Of a stretch of DNA of 64,000 nt, positions 2,218 to 41,106 are shown one piece after another; the first letter of the stretch is position 1, and each line of letters begins with the position of its first letter. The translations under genes and the position numbers were made by a program. Under the pieces are notes generated by a model. It made no database searches and was not told where the DNA came from. It saw only the letters and a program-made list of their open reading frames with translations. Source of the stretch: Planktothrix agardhii NIES-204 (GTDB taxonomy: Bacteria; Cyanobacteriota; Cyanobacteriia; Cyanobacteriales; Microcoleaceae); NCBI GenBank assembly GCA_003609755.1, contig AP017991.1:2187501-2251500 (forward strand), read 5' to 3'.

Positions 2218-3294
2218 TTAATTAAGGGAAGGGGGAATATTAAAGGGGGTCTGACTATTTAGAATTTCAGCAACTACATTATAAATGATTGTGGCTGATC
2301 CTTCAAAAAAGTTGGGATCTAAATTAGCCATTGTATCACTAGGTTGATGATAATGGGGCGATCGCAAATTCGCCGTATCGGTGATTAAAACCGCCGGAAT
2401 ACCTTGATACCAAAAGGGAGCATGATCACTGCGTAAAACATCCGGTGTGAGCAAACCTTTTAAGGGAATAGGTACGGCTACAAGGGGCGGAAATTGAACG
2501 GAATTAGAGGTTGATATTTTAATGGATTTACTAACCCTTTGAAACACTTTTAATAGTGATAAATTTTGAATTTCTCCCACTACGGTTAAAAATTCTCCTC
2601 GGTCTGGAAATTCAACTCCAGCAGCTTCTAAAAGGGGAGTTATAGCAATTCCTGAAGGATAGGTTTGACAGCCGGGTAAATGACAGGCATAACCTACCAT
2701 ATCTAATATAATTGCGGCTTGTAAATTTGTCAAATTTTGGGGTTTTTCCGTAAAGGCAAAACTTCCTAAAAGCCCGACTTCTTCTTGATCAAAAAAGACA
2801 ATCTTTAATCCCCGAAGTGTGTTTTTTTGAGCCAATAAACGGGCGATTTCTAAAATTACCGCTACCCCACTGGCGTTATCATTAGCACCCGGAGAATTGG
2901 GAACAGTATCATAATGGGCAGCGAGTAAGATTACTCCGGCTTTTGGATCGGTTCCTGGGTGTTCCGCTACAATATTAACACCTTGATCAAAGGATTGTAA
3001 ACTGGGAGCAAAGTTGAATAATTCCAATTGTTTGATCAAATAATTTCGCACCCTTTGTCGATCAAAATCTTGAAATCTTTCTCCTACTAACACTTTAATA
3101 TGACTCCATAGTTGAGGCGGATCAATTGTATCTAGTTGAGGAGATATCAAGGCAGGATAAGGTGTAATTTGAGTTTGAGAATGGGAGGAAATTGACTCTA
3201 TTTTATCATCGGGCAATCCAGCATAACATCCGACAATAATTCCGATCGCAATTCCCATCCACAAAAAAATATTAATCCACGGTTTTACCTTCAT
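2218..3294 (-). CDS. M28-family zinc aminopeptidase, probable lipoprotein
   Basis: This 358-residue protein is a zinc-dependent peptidase of family M28, probably exported. A hydrophobic N-terminus (residues 9-22) ends in IVGC, which looks like a lipobox with Cys23, so periplasmic or membrane-anchored action is likely. Metal ligand motifs are visible: HYD (127-129), ANDN (Asp139), the catalytic EE pair (171-172), LDM (Asp198), and HYHQPSDT near the C-terminus. The start codon overlaps the stop of the upstream 181-codon gene (ATGA at 3291-3294), so translation is probably coupled. A paralogue lacking the export signal lies at 23277-24122. The substrate is not predictable. Confidence 0.85.
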   Translation of the reverse strand: MKVKPWINIFLWMGIAIGIIVGCYAGLPDDKIESISSHSQTQITPYPALISPQLDTIDPPQLWSHIKVLVGERFQDFDRQRVRNYLIKQLELFNFAPSLQSFDQGVNIVAEHPGTDPKAGVILLAAHYDTVPNSPGANDNASGVAVILEIARLLAQKNTLRGLKIVFFDQEEVGLLGSFAFTEKPQNLTNLQAAIILDMVGYACHLPGCQTYPSGIAITPLLEAAGVEFPDRGEFLTVVGEIQNLSLLKVFQRVSKSIKISTSNSVQFPPLVAVPIPLKGLLTPDVLRSDHAPFWYQGIPAVLITDTANLRSPHYHQPSDTMANLDPNFFEGSATIIYNVVAEILNSQTPFNIPPSLN

Positions 3295-3836
3295 TCCAGA
3301 TTAAAATTAATTGGTTTACTGGTTAGCTTAAATTGTTTATCCTCTATTTTAACATAGGGAATATTTATGGTTTCTAATTCCAATAATTGAGGATGTTTAG
3401 GCAGCCAGTCTTCAGAAATAGGTTGAAAATTTTCTGCGTTTTTACATAATAAAAAAATTTCTTCTTGTAAACTATTAGCTAATTGATTAATACGATCACA
3501 ATTTTTTTTAAGTTCAATCCAATTTTTTTGAGCCTGAAAGCGATTAATTTGAGCCTGTTTAACGGCGAGTTTAGCCCTAACTTGTCTTAATTTAATCCGA
3601 GTGGCTTGAATTTCTTGATCGAGTTGTTGTAAATTCAATGACCAACGCTGGGCTTCGTCTTGGGTTTGTTGTTGTAAGGTGGCTAAGGATTCTGGGGAAG
3701 AATCCGAGGAAAATAAAACAGTAACATGAAAGTTAGAACGCTTACTTCTTAACCTATTATATTCAGCTTTGACCGCATTAATTTGATCTTTGATCGCGTC
3801 CCATTCTGTTTGTAAATCTTCTAAAGTTTGGCTCAT
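3291..3836 (-). CDS. Coiled-coil protein of unknown function
   Basis: I do not recognise a named family. The 181-residue protein is mostly heptad-like helix (residues 1-60 and 70-135) rich in Glu, Gln, Lys and Arg, with a shorter C-terminal tail containing WLPKHPQLLELE. There is no signal peptide or membrane segment. Its stop overlaps the start of the M28 peptidase gene by four bases, which suggests a two-gene translational unit. It may be a structural or chaperone-like partner, but this is only inference from the coiled coil and gene order. Confidence 0.65.
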   Translation of the reverse strand: MSQTLEDLQTEWDAIKDQINAVKAEYNRLRSKRSNFHVTVLFSSDSSPESLATLQQQTQDEAQRWSLNLQQLDQEIQATRIKLRQVRAKLAVKQAQINRFQAQKNWIELKKNCDRINQLANSLQEEIFLLCKNAENFQPISEDWLPKHPQLLELETINIPYVKIEDKQFKLTSKPINFNLE

Positions 3837-13372: not shown

Positions 13373-13606
13373 TTAGAAGGGTTTCCAGTTGAAAAGGAAA
13401 TAAATCCCTTGTTCCTGTAAACTGCAATCGCTAGACTCTAATTTAATTAAGGGAATGCCCCAGTCAATCTGTGCAGTTATCCGATCACTATATTGCCATC
13501 TTAATCCTAACCCAATTGATAATAATGTGCGATCAGGTAATAATGAGTTGATTAATTGTAGTTTGTGATGACATAATGCTTCAATTTGTTGGATGTATCG
13601 TATCAA
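13373..13606 (-). pseudogene. C-terminal remnant of a ShlB/FhaC-type outer-membrane transporter
   Basis: The 77 codons end in a beta-barrel-like pattern (LLSIGLGLRWQYSDRITAQIDWGIPLI, terminal FNWKPF) typical of the last strands of TpsB proteins, which export two-partner-secretion adhesins. The final phenylalanine is the usual outer-membrane assembly signal. A TGA precedes the TTG at 13606 directly and the frame is lost next to the MITE at 13619, so only the tail survives. The 297 bp between this and the kinase contain a small AAGCCCTGAAGGGCTT palindrome (13349-13364) and nothing else recognisable. Confidence 0.6.
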
Positions 13607-13618
13607 TCAGATCGCATA

Positions 13619-13719
13619 AGTAGGCGGGCATAAATAACGTCAACAAACCGAAAGCTAAAATCCTTATTCTAAAGGGCTTACAGCATTTAGGATTTTAACT
13701 TTAATTATGACCACCTACT
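13619..13719. mobile_element. MITE-like element with ~26-bp terminal inverted repeats and TA flanks
   Basis: The 101-bp unit begins AGTAGGCGGGCATAAATAAC and its other end is the reverse complement of AGTAGGTGGTCATAATTAAAG, so the ends match over about 26 bp with a few differences. TA dinucleotides flank both sides (13617-13618 and 13720-13721), the target duplication expected of Tc1/mariner-IS630-type elements. It has no coding capacity. A related end is found at 40437, inside a broken nuclease gene. Confidence 0.75.
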
Positions 13720-13850
13720 TAGTTGGGTGACGGAGGGACAAAGGTTGAGGTCTTGTCAACTTATGTTATTTCAGTGAAATAAGACGGCTGGATCGAAATC
13801 TTATTATAGTAAAACGCTTTTTGTTATAATAAGATTGATCGTCTGAATAC

Positions 13851-14456
13851 TTACTCACCATTAAAAATCTGTACGGCGGTCAAATTCAATTCTGGAAAAA
13901 CTACTGATTCAACTCTTTCATCTCCTCGAAACAGCTTAATTTGATACTCACCATCTACTAGCTGATAAACCGATAAAGTAGGTTGTTTTGGAGAACCAAT
14001 ATAACGGCTACCACCTAAACCCAAATAATCTACAATCCAATATTCGGGAATTCCTAATGCTTCATAATCAATCATTTTATGTGCATAATCATCGCGCCAA
14101 TTTGTGCTAACAACTTCAACGATTAAAGGAATAGACGATCCTTGAGTAATTGTTGAGGATTTTTTCCACAAAGGTTCTAGGGCTAAAGCATCACGTTTAA
14201 CTACCAAAATATCAGGTAAATAACCCGTTTCTTCACTCAGAGATTTAACTAGGGCATTCTTAGGAAATCGATAAGGAAGTTGCAGCCTACCAGTTTCTAG
14301 GATTAGAGATGTCTGCAAAAAATCAACAACCTCTTCATGTTTTCCTGTAGTCTGCATTTCTACAATAGCTCCCCGATGTATTTCATAGTGTCCGTTTTCT
14401 GGTTTCCATTCCAGAAAGTCATCGAAAGTTATTAACTTGGATATTGTTTGAGTCAT
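13851..14456 (-). CDS. Uma2-family (DUF820) PD-(D/E)xK nuclease-like protein
   Basis: The 201-residue protein belongs to the Uma2/DUF820 family, which is greatly expanded in cyanobacteria and has a restriction-endonuclease fold with unknown function. The core motif is seen as GYLPDILVVKRDAL, then PLIVEVVSTNWRDDYAHK and YEALGIPEYWIVDYL, the expected catalytic D...ExV...K order. The frame opens at TTG 14471, but ATG 14456 has GGAGG 8 bases upstream, so I start there. It lies next to the intein-bearing methyltransferase on the same strand, but 240 bp apart. Confidence 0.87.
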   Translation of the reverse strand: MTQTISKLITFDDFLEWKPENGHYEIHRGAIVEMQTTGKHEEVVDFLQTSLILETGRLQLPYRFPKNALVKSLSEETGYLPDILVVKRDALALEPLWKKSSTITQGSSIPLIVEVVSTNWRDDYAHKMIDYEALGIPEYWIVDYLGLGGSRYIGSPKQPTLSVYQLVDGEYQIKLFRGDERVESVVFPELNLTAVQIFNGE

Positions 14457-14603
14457 TGGGAAAACCTCCAACTTTTTTTTCGGGTAATTAGTCTTTTAGT
14501 CTTCAATTTTAGTGATAGGTAGATGAATAATTTGATATGGTTTATTACTCCATTTTTGGTTTAGGTTTGATTGATATTCAGAGTCATAGTTTAGATTATA
14601 GCA

Positions 14604-14699
14604 CTTACCCAGAAACCGGGTTTCTTAGGTTAACCGAATAATTTTCAAACTTTCAATTCCCCGATCATCCACAATTTTAACAGCAACGCGCTGATATTT
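14604..14699 (-). pseudogene. Lost C-terminal tail of the methyltransferase (after a premature stop)
   Basis: Directly after the TGA at 14700-14702 the same frame reads KYQRVAVKIVDDRGIESLKI before running into the palindrome AGAAACCCGGTTTCT and stopping at 14604-14606. The VAVKIVDDRGIESLKI stretch resembles the conserved end of this methyltransferase family, so the stop has removed the last ~20 native residues. The remaining bases to 14471 hold the palindrome (14611-14623) and nothing else I can name. Confidence 0.6.
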
Positions 14700-17309
14700 T
14701 CACATCTCAAAAGGTAACGAAACAGTTCCCTGATAAGACTCAATTAAATCCTCATCAATTTCAGCTTTCAAATTCTTAGCAACACGCGACCAAGCATCCT
14801 TTTCCCCGGCCATCGGAAAGAATACTTGACGGGGGAAAATGCTTCTCCCATCATAATCAATATCTAACATCCAAACAGCTATTTTTTCCACACTACCAGA
14901 CTCGATATTTCCGGTTTTTGTGTTATAATAATCAAAGCCTAAAAGGGCGATTGAATTATCAGGAATGGCTGGATTGATAATATCGTCAATTGGTTTAACT
15001 GTGGGTGCGGGGACGGCTTCGACGGTGAAGGGCCCCGTAATTCTGGCTTTGGATTTGTCTAATAATGGTTGGTCATAAAGAGTTTCTTGGTCGGCGTATT
15101 TATTAATCGCTTGTTCGATTTCTATGCGATTCATTCCTTCCCGAATTTCGGGATTATTGGCAATAGATTTAAGGGTGATATGAGGGACGGTTTTGTATTT
15201 GAAACCACCGCCTACGCCTTCTTGGGAATTTGCTAATTGATAATAGTCAAAGGTGGCGGTCATTAACCTTTGTTTGGCTAGGGTTATTGCTACTCTTGAG
15301 GTATCGCAGGTTATCCATCTGCGTCCCCATTGTTCGGCAACGTAGGCAGTTGTACCGCTACCGCAATTGTGAACTGTACAAACTTCAGCAATAAAAGAAT
15401 GACTACCTTCAATCTCTAAATCATAAACAGTTTCAGTTGACCAACAATTTTCTACTTTTGCAATTTCAACACATTCAAGACTAATCTTTTCTACCCCTAT
15501 TTCTACCCCTATTTCTCCCCCTCTTACTGCCTCTCTTACTCCCCCTCTTACTGCCTCTCTTACTCCCCCCGTACACGGGGGGTTGGGGGGGGACACAAGT
15601 GCACTAAAAACAATATCTCCTGGTTTTAGATTACCCGCTTGAACCCAAGTCGCACCCTCAATTGATTCAGTGCGGATGCGACATTGAGATTCAATTGCTA
15701 AACAAACTCCTTCTAAATTTTCGTAAATTTCTTTTGTCGTAAAGCGCAGCACATCAAGACCAAGACTACGCATAAAACTATCCCGTTGTCGATCATATTC
15801 TATTGCTTCTGGTTCAAAGTGGGTTGCCCCATCTATTTCTACAACTAAATGAGCATCTCGACTATAAAAGTCAGCAATATATCGACCGATAGGATGTTGA
15901 CGACGAAACTTAAATTCTAGTTTTTTTCCTCGTAAAACATCCCACAATTTCTGCTCTGGAGGTGTCATTTCTTTACGAAGTTTTCGGCGAAGTTCTAGGT
16001 GACTATAGGGGGTTGCTGACCAGTCTTGATTACCTCCTAAACTGCGCGGTCTAAGTTTTGCTAGTACGCGATGATCGGCTGTTAACCACAGAGTTGTATT
16101 GTTGTTTTTACAGGTTAACCCGATCATTTCTCCTTGGTATTGTTTCTGGATGGTGCGTAGGACTCGGTGGGGTTTTTGGTCGTGACTGTAGACTAAAGTA
16201 CCGGGTTGTATTTCTTCGATGGGAATGAGTTTTTCTTCCCCTAAATCTCCCGTGAATCCCCGCCTAAATCCCCCCGTGTACGGGGGGACTTTGAGTTCTC
16301 TTACTCCCTCCCCATTCATGGGGAGGGTTGGGGAGGGGGTCAATATTTTTGTTCCTTTTCGCAAGCAGGTGATATCTAGGACTAAATCGCCTGGGTCGGT
16401 GGTCATTAGGAGGCAACGCTGGATGACTTTAATAGCTGTTTGTACTACATAAATTTTATTTTTTTCTGCTGTTCCCATTGTATCTATCCACATATTGGTA
16501 ATAGGAATACTTAGATTGCTGCTAAATGCACCTGTTTTCTTAAAAGATATTTGACCGCAAAAGTTATTTATCCCAAATACCTCATCCATCAATTCCCTAA
16601 CATGATGCAAATTCTCATCCGAAATCTGCACAAAAACACTACCACTTTCCGACAATAACTCCCTCGCCAATAACAATCTATCTCTTAAATAAGTCAAATA
16701 AGAATGAATCCCCAATTCCCAAGTATCCCGAAATGCTTTAATCATTTCCGGTTCTTGAGTCAAATCCTCATCTTTCCCATCTTTCACATCCCGATTATTC
16801 ACAAACGGCTGAAAATTTGAACCATATTTAATTCCATAGGGCGGATCGAAATAAATCATCTGTACTTGTCCCGCCATTCCCTCTTTTTCTAATAGGGAAT
16901 TCATCACTAAAAGCGAATCTCCAGCAACTAAACGGTTACTCCAATTATGCTGATGTTTATAAAATTCAATCGCTTGTCGAATAGGCGGATTTTCTTCAGG
17001 TATTTCAAATAAAGATAACTGTACAGCCTGAGTTTGATTTTGCTTCCGTACTGCTTCTATAATGCTGCGCGGATCGATGCGTTCGTGAACGTGCAAAGAT
17101 ACAGTTGGCACTTCAAAATTAGTATGTTCCGCCTTACCAGCCCAAACTAATTGCGGGTCAAGGTGCGGATCGTAGCTATAATTTTTATTATCACCATCAG
17201 GATCACTTTCTGGCGTAACCAGTCCCACAGGTGGATTATTCACTCGTTGCTGATTTTCGTGATTATATTGATCTATATTTCTTTGATCGGGTTTCTTTTG
17301 CCTTGCCAT
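14700..17309 (-). CDS. Site-specific DNA-methyltransferase (beta class, type III Mod-like) interrupted by an intein
   Basis: The host protein methylates DNA bases using SAM. The catalytic DPPY motif is at residues 155-158 and the SAM-binding motif CGSGTTAYVAEQWGRRW follows far downstream, the order of beta-class amino-methyltransferases. Between T314 and C649 of the translated protein sits a 334-residue intein. Without it the enzyme is about 535 residues, much shorter than relatives I know (~850-1000). The jump from KKTGAFSSNLS to IPITNMWID and a second one before LLGFDYYNTKTGNIESG look like internal deletions. The last codons are cut by a TGA at 14700. The frame opens with TTG at 17351, but ATG 17309 has AGGAGA 5 bases upstream. 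I would treat enzymatic activity as doubtful. Confidence 0.85.
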   Translation of the reverse strand: MARQKKPDQRNIDQYNHENQQRVNNPPVGLVTPESDPDGDNKNYSYDPHLDPQLVWAGKAEHTNFEVPTVSLHVHERIDPRSIIEAVRKQNQTQAVQLSLFEIPEENPPIRQAIEFYKHQHNWSNRLVAGDSLLVMNSLLEKEGMAGQVQMIYFDPPYGIKYGSNFQPFVNNRDVKDGKDEDLTQEPEMIKAFRDTWELGIHSYLTYLRDRLLLARELLSESGSVFVQISDENLHHVRELMDEVFGINNFCGQISFKKTGAFSSNLSIPITNMWIDTMGTAEKNKIYVVQTAIKVIQRCLLMTTDPGDLVLDITCLRKGTKILTPSPTLPMNGEGVRELKVPPYTGGFRRGFTGDLGEEKLIPIEEIQPGTLVYSHDQKPHRVLRTIQKQYQGEMIGLTCKNNNTTLWLTADHRVLAKLRPRSLGGNQDWSATPYSHLELRRKLRKEMTPPEQKLWDVLRGKKLEFKFRRQHPIGRYIADFYSRDAHLVVEIDGATHFEPEAIEYDRQRDSFMRSLGLDVLRFTTKEIYENLEGVCLAIESQCRIRTESIEGATWVQAGNLKPGDIVFSALVSPPNPPCTGGVREAVRGGVREAVRGGEIGVEIGVEKISLECVEIAKVENCWSTETVYDLEIEGSHSFIAEVCTVHNCGSGTTAYVAEQWGRRWITCDTSRVAITLAKQRLMTATFDYYQLANSQEGVGGGFKYKTVPHITLKSIANNPEIREGMNRIEIEQAINKYADQETLYDQPLLDKSKARITGPFTVEAVPAPTVKPIDDIINPAIPDNSIALLGFDYYNTKTGNIESGSVEKIAVWMLDIDYDGRSIFPRQVFFPMAGEKDAWSRVAKNLKAEIDEDLIESYQGTVSLPFEM
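15490..15590. repeat. Tandem and palindromic repeats read in frame inside the intein
   Basis: A 12-bp unit (CTACCCCTATTT) occurs twice, a ~24-bp unit (CCCCCTCTTACTGCCTCTCTTA region) twice, and then the palindrome CCCCCCGTACACGGGGGG at 15565-15582. They encode the linker with GGVREAV and EIGVEIGV repeats. The frame is kept throughout. Confidence 0.75.
16270..16338. repeat. Two palindromes inserted in frame near the intein N-terminus
   Basis: CCCCCCGTGTACGGGGGG (16270-16287) is followed by CCCTCCCCATTCATGGGGAG plus GG (16306-16327). They encode the stretch between block A and the next conserved segment, where other inteins have no insertion. The first is the same family as the palindromes near 10790 and 15565. 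Confidence 0.75.
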
Positions 17310-17401
17310 GGGATCTCCTCTAGTCAAAGACTTTACTTTACAATTGATCAAATTATTTCTGTATTTGAGGAACGCTCATCAACAGCTACTATTTAAAAGT
17401 T

Positions 17402-40398: not shown

Positions 40399-41106
40399 AT
40401 GAACGAAGCACAGCAAATTAAAAATCCCAGTATTAAGTAGGTGGTCATAAATAAAGTCAACAATAGAAGAAGATTGTTTAGGATAATTCTTAAGGGTTAC
40501 TAAGGGAATTCATCGGGTTTACCATTTGGTATATATAAACCAGACTATTTAATTCAAGCAGTAGATCAAAGTCAAATTTTTAAATTTGAATGGAAGACAG
40601 GAATAGGAATTATTGAAAATAATGTTGATGTATATCCTAATTTTACTTATCCTAAACTGGCTAGTTGCTTAAAATGTGATACAGATAATAATACTCTGCG
40701 CGACTGTTTAATAGAAATGAATCAAACTAAATAAGAAAAAGATTTTTTCTATAAACATGGAAAATTTTCTCAATGCAGAAAAATCAGAAAAAACGATGCC
40801 CCTATATTAATACCTCAAGGATGGATTCAATGGCATTCATCATCTAAAGATAAATTAAAACCCACTCATTCACTTAAAGATGATATATATCGTATAGATT
40901 TTGTTGCATTTTGGAATAATAAAAGGTTTGCTATTTTAATAGATGGTGAAAGCCATTACTCCAAGCAAGAATCTTATTCAAAAACTTTGAAAGAAGATCG
41001 AGATTTACGCCAAAAAGGATGGGAAATCTTCAGAATAAGTAACTGGGATGTAGACAATCGAGTTAACGATATTTTAGAAGAATTAAAAGAATTCATTAGT
41101 TTTTAG
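40399..41106 (+). pseudogene. DUF559/Vsr-like nuclease gene disrupted by a MITE fragment and a stop
   Basis: ATG 40399 opens MNEAQQIKNPSI and is interrupted at 40436 by the end of the MITE family (AGTAGGTGGTCATAAATAAA). From 40510 the frame resumes and reads an N-terminal domain with SCLKCDTDNNTLRDC, a TAA at 40732-40734, and a C-terminal nuclease segment (YRIDFVAFWNNKRFAILIDG, EDRDLRQKGWEIFRISNWDV) ending at 41106. The acidic D...DG core and WEIFR(I/V) segment are typical of DUF559/Vsr-type PD-(D/E)xK nucleases. At least two lesions make it non-functional. Confidence 0.65.
40437..40509. mobile_element. Half-copy of the MITE family
   Basis: The left end AGTAGGTGGTCATAAATAAA is preceded by TA and is nearly identical to the right terminal repeat of the element at 13619-13719. 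No matching opposite terminus is visible within the next 100 bp, so this is a truncated copy. Confidence 0.6.

Follow-up and report, generated by a model that had tools for sequence, protein, structure and literature searches.

In the 64,000-nucleotide stretch of Planktothrix agardhii NIES-204 DNA that was analysed (hereafter the window), a Type III restriction-modification (R-M) methyltransferase gene, mod, is interrupted by a Cys1-class intein that belongs to a real family. The element is probably a cis-splicing intein whose family gained a DUF559 homing nuclease once, in the loop between the Hint motifs N3 and N4, and which is now stranded in the window strain. An ancestral mini-intein would have acquired the nuclease between N3 and N4, apparently in a single event. 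Once excised, the intein would serve as a homing endonuclease: it would cut motif I, which is conserved, in mod genes that have no intein, and repair from the occupied copy would spread it, even across Mod subfamilies.

Organization of the intein and of its host gene

The intein is read on the minus strand as 334 codons containing no stop, inserted exactly between the sequences ...LVLDIT and CGSGTT of the window ORF. It ends with His-Asn, the next residue is Cys (+1), and the SAM-binding motif I of the methyltransferase is split as LDIT/CGSGTT. The original prediction had proposed these coordinates, this split of the CGSGTT motif and the presence of all splicing blocks (Cys1, TADH, VYDLE and HN/Cys); the three proposals proved exact. 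The features are as follows, N3, N4, F and G being the names which we take to apply to the motifs and blocks of this intein.

14700..17309, minus strand: intein-bearing host gene mod, encoding a Type III R-M modification methyltransferase
16368..17309, minus strand: N-extein, with the DPPYG motif IV, a shortened target-recognition region and ...LVLDIT
16457..16525, minus strand: junction of the target-recognition-region deletion seen against PCC 7821 (blastn breakpoints and alignment)
15366-16367, minus strand: intein, 334 aa (Cys1 ... TADH ... VYDLE ... HN/Cys)
16344..16367, minus strand: block A (CLRKGTKI), including Cys1
16233..16337, minus strand: in-frame peptide encoded by GC-rich inverted repeats, in the loop that follows block A
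16071..16082, minus strand: motif N3 (TADH)
15681..15992, minus strand: DUF559 nuclease, EDxHD/Vsr-like (Pfam, alignments and structure model)
15612..15647, minus strand: motif N4 (WVQAGNLKPGDI), which follows the nuclease
15486..15596, minus strand: repeat-derived peptide (SPPNPPCTGGVREAVRGG...) containing tandem units, in the N4 to block F interval where inteins usually carry their nuclease
15565-15582: dispersed 18-bp palindrome inside the repeat-derived peptide SPPNPPCTGGVREAVRGG...
15414..15428, minus strand: block F (VYDLE)
15363..15371, minus strand: His-Asn of block G plus the +1 Cys of CGSGTT
14703..15365, minus strand: C-extein, truncated through a premature stop and an internal deletion
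14939..14942, minus strand: C-extein deletion junction relative to PCC 7821
13540..13541: junction of the missing res (all but about 35 bp of the PCC 7821 res are absent)

Blocks A, N3, F and G and the Cys+1 are in frame in the eight uninterrupted copies of the family, where N3 varies to SADH (G467), TPDH (G287) and TGDH (G351); the full set of blocks was not found in the ninth copy, G549, which is broken. The window protein scores 26.6 bits with the Pfam model Intein_splicing, under the cut-off of 35.8, and 24.9 bits with the NCBIfam intein C-terminal model, over the cut-off of 15.6. Comparison with known inteins, called for at the outset, gave matches of a six-intein profile to KlbA (2jmz; one weak stretch on either side of the nuclease, combined E 1.7e-7) and to the Mtu RecA mini-intein (3ifj; as far as the terminal HN, E 4.8e-6). 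The nuclease part of the same profile matched 3HRL at 2.6e-22. A split intein of the Dassa type, with Hint halves in separate genes, was rejected since the window intein is one continuous ORF. The predicted intein would splice and its nuclease would cleave.

The host ORF spans 14700-17351 on the minus strand, and the start of mod is likely the ATG at 17309, which follows AGGAG. The host had been described as a DNA methyltransferase; it is more exactly a Type III Mod (N6_N4_Mtase in Pfam, 4e-20; MTase_III in PADLOC, 6.7e-122), decayed in the window. The N-extein frame counts 336 residues in the window versus 461 in Planktothrix rubescens PCC 7821, most of the target-recognition region being missing, and the C-extein counts 221 versus 434, with an internal deletion plus an early stop. 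These differences presumably represent losses in the window and not gains in PCC 7821, near whose mod a res gene is present (ResIII, 37.8 bits, cut-off 22.5). The chromosomal Type III mod/res locus (window 13540-17309) is decayed, and an intein-free pair is found on contig C4 of the same genome. The mods of G467 (L128, about 5650) and G287 (L129, about 4795) are frameshifted at nearly one place, the start of the target-recognition region; in G549 both intein and mod are broken. The proposal that methyltransferase activity depends on splicing can apply to the Mods with unbroken frames (PCC 7821, the MAG G005, G066, G485 and G351) and hardly to the window copy, whose Mod is shortened and decayed.

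Family and position of the nuclease

The DUF559/Vsr-like assignment of the nuclease was borne out by Pfam (DUF559, PF04480; E 7e-30, 103.5 bits, cut-off 20.6), by four residues that do not vary in our alignments (D166, E177, D179 and H183, in intein numbering), and by structure prediction. The AF2 model is good over residues ~131-230 and poor over the Hint parts, where every ten-residue block is below 60, the Hint alignment consists of three near-identical rows and no confident Hint fold is obtained. The best Foldseek match of the nuclease model is 3HRL (E 2.1e-6; TM 0.89, by target), and it also matches I-Bth0305I in its catalytic domain (3R3P; E 3.5e-4, TM 0.80 by target). The further matches include several mitoribosomal proteins and PvuRts1I, and Vsr (1CW0) is found at rank 11 (E 0.041, TM 0.45). 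On this model, the nuclease is of the EDxHD/Vsr-fold DUF559 class. No LAGLIDADG match was obtained with Pfam in the window protein (threshold E 1) or in the intein (threshold E 0.1), and Pfam detected no DNA-binding module in either. In a tree of 80 DUF559 rows (79 different) filtered from the loci collected, a single branch separates the nine intein nucleases (9 of the 80 rows) from all others, with an SH-aLRT value of 85, which is not decisive.

In inteins at large, the usual site of the homing endonuclease (HEN) domain is after N4, for which the basis here is the set of inteins compared below. In the family described here, motif N4 (pattern WxxA..L..GD) is located after the nuclease. The N3-N4 distance is 145-146 residues in all eight uninterrupted copies, with the nuclease between the two motifs in every one of them. 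The canonical layout, with the nuclease after N4, is found in none of the eight; there the usual site is a linker. Between N4 and block F there are 35 residues in the five copies from outside Planktothrix; in Planktothrix (three copies) this loop is occupied by repeat peptides and reaches 73 residues. For the LAGLIDADG inteins L088, L092 and L093, the N3-N4 distances are 39, 40 and 44 and the N4-F distances are 238, 238 and 307, respectively. The DnaX intein L065 also has a long insert after N4 (gap of 333). When the nuclease is removed in silico, the Hint part aligns straight through with DnaX mini-inteins. The idea that the nuclease takes the place of the LAGLIDADG endonuclease stands as regards the family (DUF559, no LAGLIDADG match) and fails as regards the place: a simple replacement is ruled out by the N3/N4 layout, the nuclease being one loop earlier.

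Excerpts of PMC6801210 state that all intein HEN domains share one conserved site, which is called puzzling, that random invasion should have yielded inteins with HENs elsewhere too, and offer a steric explanation. As far as these excerpts go, the DUF559 domain between N3 and N4 departs from the single site and the family therefore looks like a counterexample; the nuclease being both misplaced and of a different fold, the steric explanation would become directly testable. What looks new here, from sequence comparison, is thus a DUF559 domain at a non-canonical place between N3 and N4, and this suggests that homing inteins can arise by more than one route. A contiguous intein with an EDxHD/Vsr-fold nuclease is also a possible source of new site-specific nucleases.

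Empty sites, distribution and spread between hosts

The comparison of homologues with and without the insertion at the same codon, proposed at the outset, revealed a clean CGSGTT join in seven of the eight intein-free homologues read (G016, G055, G017, G026, G036, G012 and contig C4 of the window genome). The Mod homologue of G018 (L044) reads LDPTMGSATT instead of CGSGTT at this site and is therefore without the Cys that the intein needs. In the close Mod family (386 genomes, at least 90 bits), 18 loci were detected, of which 13 run through the site and five are interrupted; run-through was judged by the extent of the match, and the second subfamily (that of G066) falls under 90 bits and is uncounted.

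Nine cyanobacterial genomes, one of them with a broken copy, share this intein at an identical codon, and the hosts belong to two Mod subfamilies. The scan of genome contigs with peptide patterns recovered two full-length relatives, in P. rubescens PCC 7821 (93% identity) and in one MAG (92%). The window genome, PCC 7821 and this MAG are labelled G000, G295 and G005, and the sample table places G295 in the same species as the window genome. A Hint query matched 21 of 386 genomes of the phylum, six of which have the DUF559 intein (G000, G295, G005, G066, G287 and G351); six of the other 15 were read, five of them being DnaX inteins and the sixth a frame in which no intein was recognised. In the class, the Hint N-half profile matched 13 of 388 genomes. 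Six contain the DUF559 intein (G000, G066, G287, G485, G467 and the broken G549) and the remaining seven contain an intein in SufB (five) or in DNA-methylase-like genes (two). Of these seven, the three scanned (L088, L092 and L093) all have a confirmed Pfam LAGLIDADG domain; their Pfam host is SufB in L088 and L092, with only a sub-threshold methylase match for L093. In G001, this DUF559-family intein is interrupted, its two ends lying near two contig ends, and no nuclease was seen. Phylum and class samples are composed of cyanobacteria; the other phyla were covered by the peptide-pattern scan of genome contigs, which finds close relatives.

A plasmid or phage vehicle was rejected: no plasmid or phage record covers 80% of the intein, and all matches listed (40 of the 43 plasmid records and all 3 phage records) begin no earlier than residue 108, in the DUF559 part. 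Scans of IMG/VR with exact short peptide patterns recovered DUF559 alone plus one different intein, L136. The intein gene of this phage contig (2146-3996, plus strand) contains, inside the intein, an opposite-strand ORF (3151-3759, minus strand) encoding a DUF559/MTES_1575 nuclease, both Pfam matches being over the cut-off.

Past spread between hosts is well supported by sequence comparisons. The host of the G066 and G485 inteins is another Mod subfamily, whose identity to the window over the initial 75 residues of the C-extein is 40-41%. The G467 intein is 63% identical to that of G066, 62% to that of G485 and 53% to that of the window; its C-extein is 88% identical to that of the window and only 41% to that of G066. 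In AU tests, for which the groups were named after the trees had been seen and in which G351 and G287 are long branches, the opposite groupings were rejected, with p 0.0075 on the intein data and p 0.029 on the extein data, where the likelihoods differ by only 1.3. The tree of the intein disagrees with that of its hosts, and therefore the intein has moved; the history of a selfish element that had been assumed is supported.

Judging from dN/dS (NG86), the nuclease is under purifying selection. The values are 0.04 (window-MAG), 0.09 (window-PCC 7821), 0.14 (PCC-MAG) and 0.05 (G066-G485) for the nuclease and 0.16, 0.49, 0.24 and 0.12, respectively, for the Hint part, the Planktothrix pairs differing by only 8 to 19 substitutions per part and most of the distant pairs being saturated at synonymous sites. 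At 0.49, the Hint part of the window-PCC 7821 pair is not clearly constrained. Homing is likely in the history of the family and doubtful in the window strain. Contig C4 (52 kb, in G000) carries an intein-free mod with an open frame of 884 aa, in a mod/res pair (C4:19608-27187) where both frames are open. The C4 res is 89% identical to that of PCC 7821, the empty site of the C4 mod is identical to the window flanks at 56 of 60 bases, and a second close mod was not found in PCC 7821. Efficient homing today is doubtful because this intein-free, open-frame mod persists in the same genome: it is the main evidence against it, unless C4 has recently arrived. The window element, with a nuclease that reads intact and a decayed mod/res locus, looks stranded.

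Alternative origins and related systems

Repeat-like DNA is present in both long loops of the window intein, as inverted repeats after block A and as tandem units after N4. Across the genome, the palindrome CCCCCCGTACACGGGGGG of the loop after N4 is matched 143 times in forward and 131 times in reverse orientation with at most two mismatches, some places being counted on both strands, and its backward control gave none. DUF559 domains were also found in frame inside PriA (L110, L111), IspE (L116, L117), PrmA (L119), an MmeI-like enzyme (L017), Eco57I-type methylases (L019, L107), a type ISP enzyme (L108), a DUF1156 protein (L123) and a UvrD-type helicase (L114). In L118, where it follows HydE, and in L121, where it precedes IspE, the domain occupies one end of the frame. 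The loci read (4 + 20) were all picked for long frames, and families were tested for 13 frames. The intein end motif was found in none of the 18 frames with a DUF559 match in which it was sought. The PriA site was matched in 59 of 60 genomes: three have an insert of 429-504 bp (one being the source of the query), nine a short insert (33-141 bp) and 47 run through. In the window, a weak partial DUF559 match is also seen at 40882-41097 (plus strand; E 2.4e-5), which no start-to-stop ORF of at least 60 aa covers.

Since in-frame DUF559 domains are found in Hint-free genes too, as in PriA, IspE, PrmA and R-M genes, the nuclease may be a passenger: an itinerant, repeat-associated DUF559 would have landed in a splicing mini-intein, which then spread by ordinary transfer and recombination of mod and not through this nuclease. 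Repeat peptides, encoded by GC-rich repeats, flank 20 of 25 in-frame DUF559 domains versus 12 of 267 control pairs, with a pattern composed after the sequences were seen, and both the non-canonical loop and the uninvaded C4 mod would agree with a passenger. We nevertheless regard this origin as unlikely. The nine intein nucleases are conserved and form one clade, and the intein has moved to the exact codon between distant Mods, as homing predicts. In the 60 residues preceding the nuclease, a repeat peptide is absent from all nine; the three Planktothrix copies carry one on the downstream side, past N4, and the other six carry none. Inactivity of both splicing and nuclease in the window strain would fit the decayed mod and the missing res, but such a dead relic is very unlikely: the intein is 93% identical to that of PCC 7821 and has kept all blocks and the conserved nuclease residues. 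The low dN/dS of the nuclease towards the MAG and PCC 7821 points the same way, weakly because the substitutions are few.

A functional link to R-M, the excised nuclease being a cutting or repair partner of Mod and the intein being retained in a modification system, is most improbable. The host is indeed a Type III Mod, and an excerpt of PMC12907096 reports that the Caulobacter DUF559 protein VsrA damages cells lacking a cytosine methyltransferase. However, the intein is absent at 13 of 18 close Mod loci, the window nuclease reads intact although its Mod is decayed, and Vsr repair follows cytosine methylation whereas the window Mod matches the N6/N4 family. The reading that we retain is thus that of a cis-splicing Mod intein whose DUF559 nuclease would have driven homing. 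It is possible, if short of probable, that the family represents an independent second origin of such elements, in which a mini-intein captured, at a non-HEN loop, DUF559 from a class of palindromic-repeat-associated cassettes that enter coding genes (PriA, IspE, PrmA, R-M genes) in frame and without splicing. If true, DUF559 would power a mobile element of a so far unrecognised, in-frame type, and the intein would be the case in which it came upon a splicing shell.

Concerning known systems, the LAGLIDADG inteins (cyanobacterial SufB; L093), to which PI-SceI also belongs, share with the window intein the Hint blocks, the Cys1/HN/Cys+1 residues and a nested nuclease. Their nuclease is of another family and lies after N4, whereas that of the window family lies between N3 and N4. 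In the 'fractured genes' that Dassa 2009 reportedly describes, a Vsr-like homing nuclease is likewise associated with inteins, but these are split, with Hint halves in separate genes, whereas the window intein is contiguous. Excerpts of PMC12350094, PMC3943268 and PMC12768974 indicate that Vsr-like/EDxHD homing nucleases, linked to split inteins, were already known. Among the papers listed by our literature searches, titles and abstract openings do not name a DUF559 intein, most subscription papers being outside this scope. The EDxHD/Vsr homing endonuclease I-Bth0305I has a nuclease fold like that of the window intein and, according to an excerpt of PMC3943268, a long DNA-binding region, whereas Pfam found none in the window intein. 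A Thermosynechococcus gene of the same nuclease family is filed under EDxHD homing endonucleases in an excerpt of PMC9403480 that makes no mention of an intein. Finally, the ShiLan phage insertion is, in an excerpt of PMC11855218, a homing insertion within a DNA methylase reading frame, like the window intein, with a hidden HNH. As described there, it has no splicing domains and its HNH is out of frame, whereas the window intein has splicing blocks and an in-frame nuclease.
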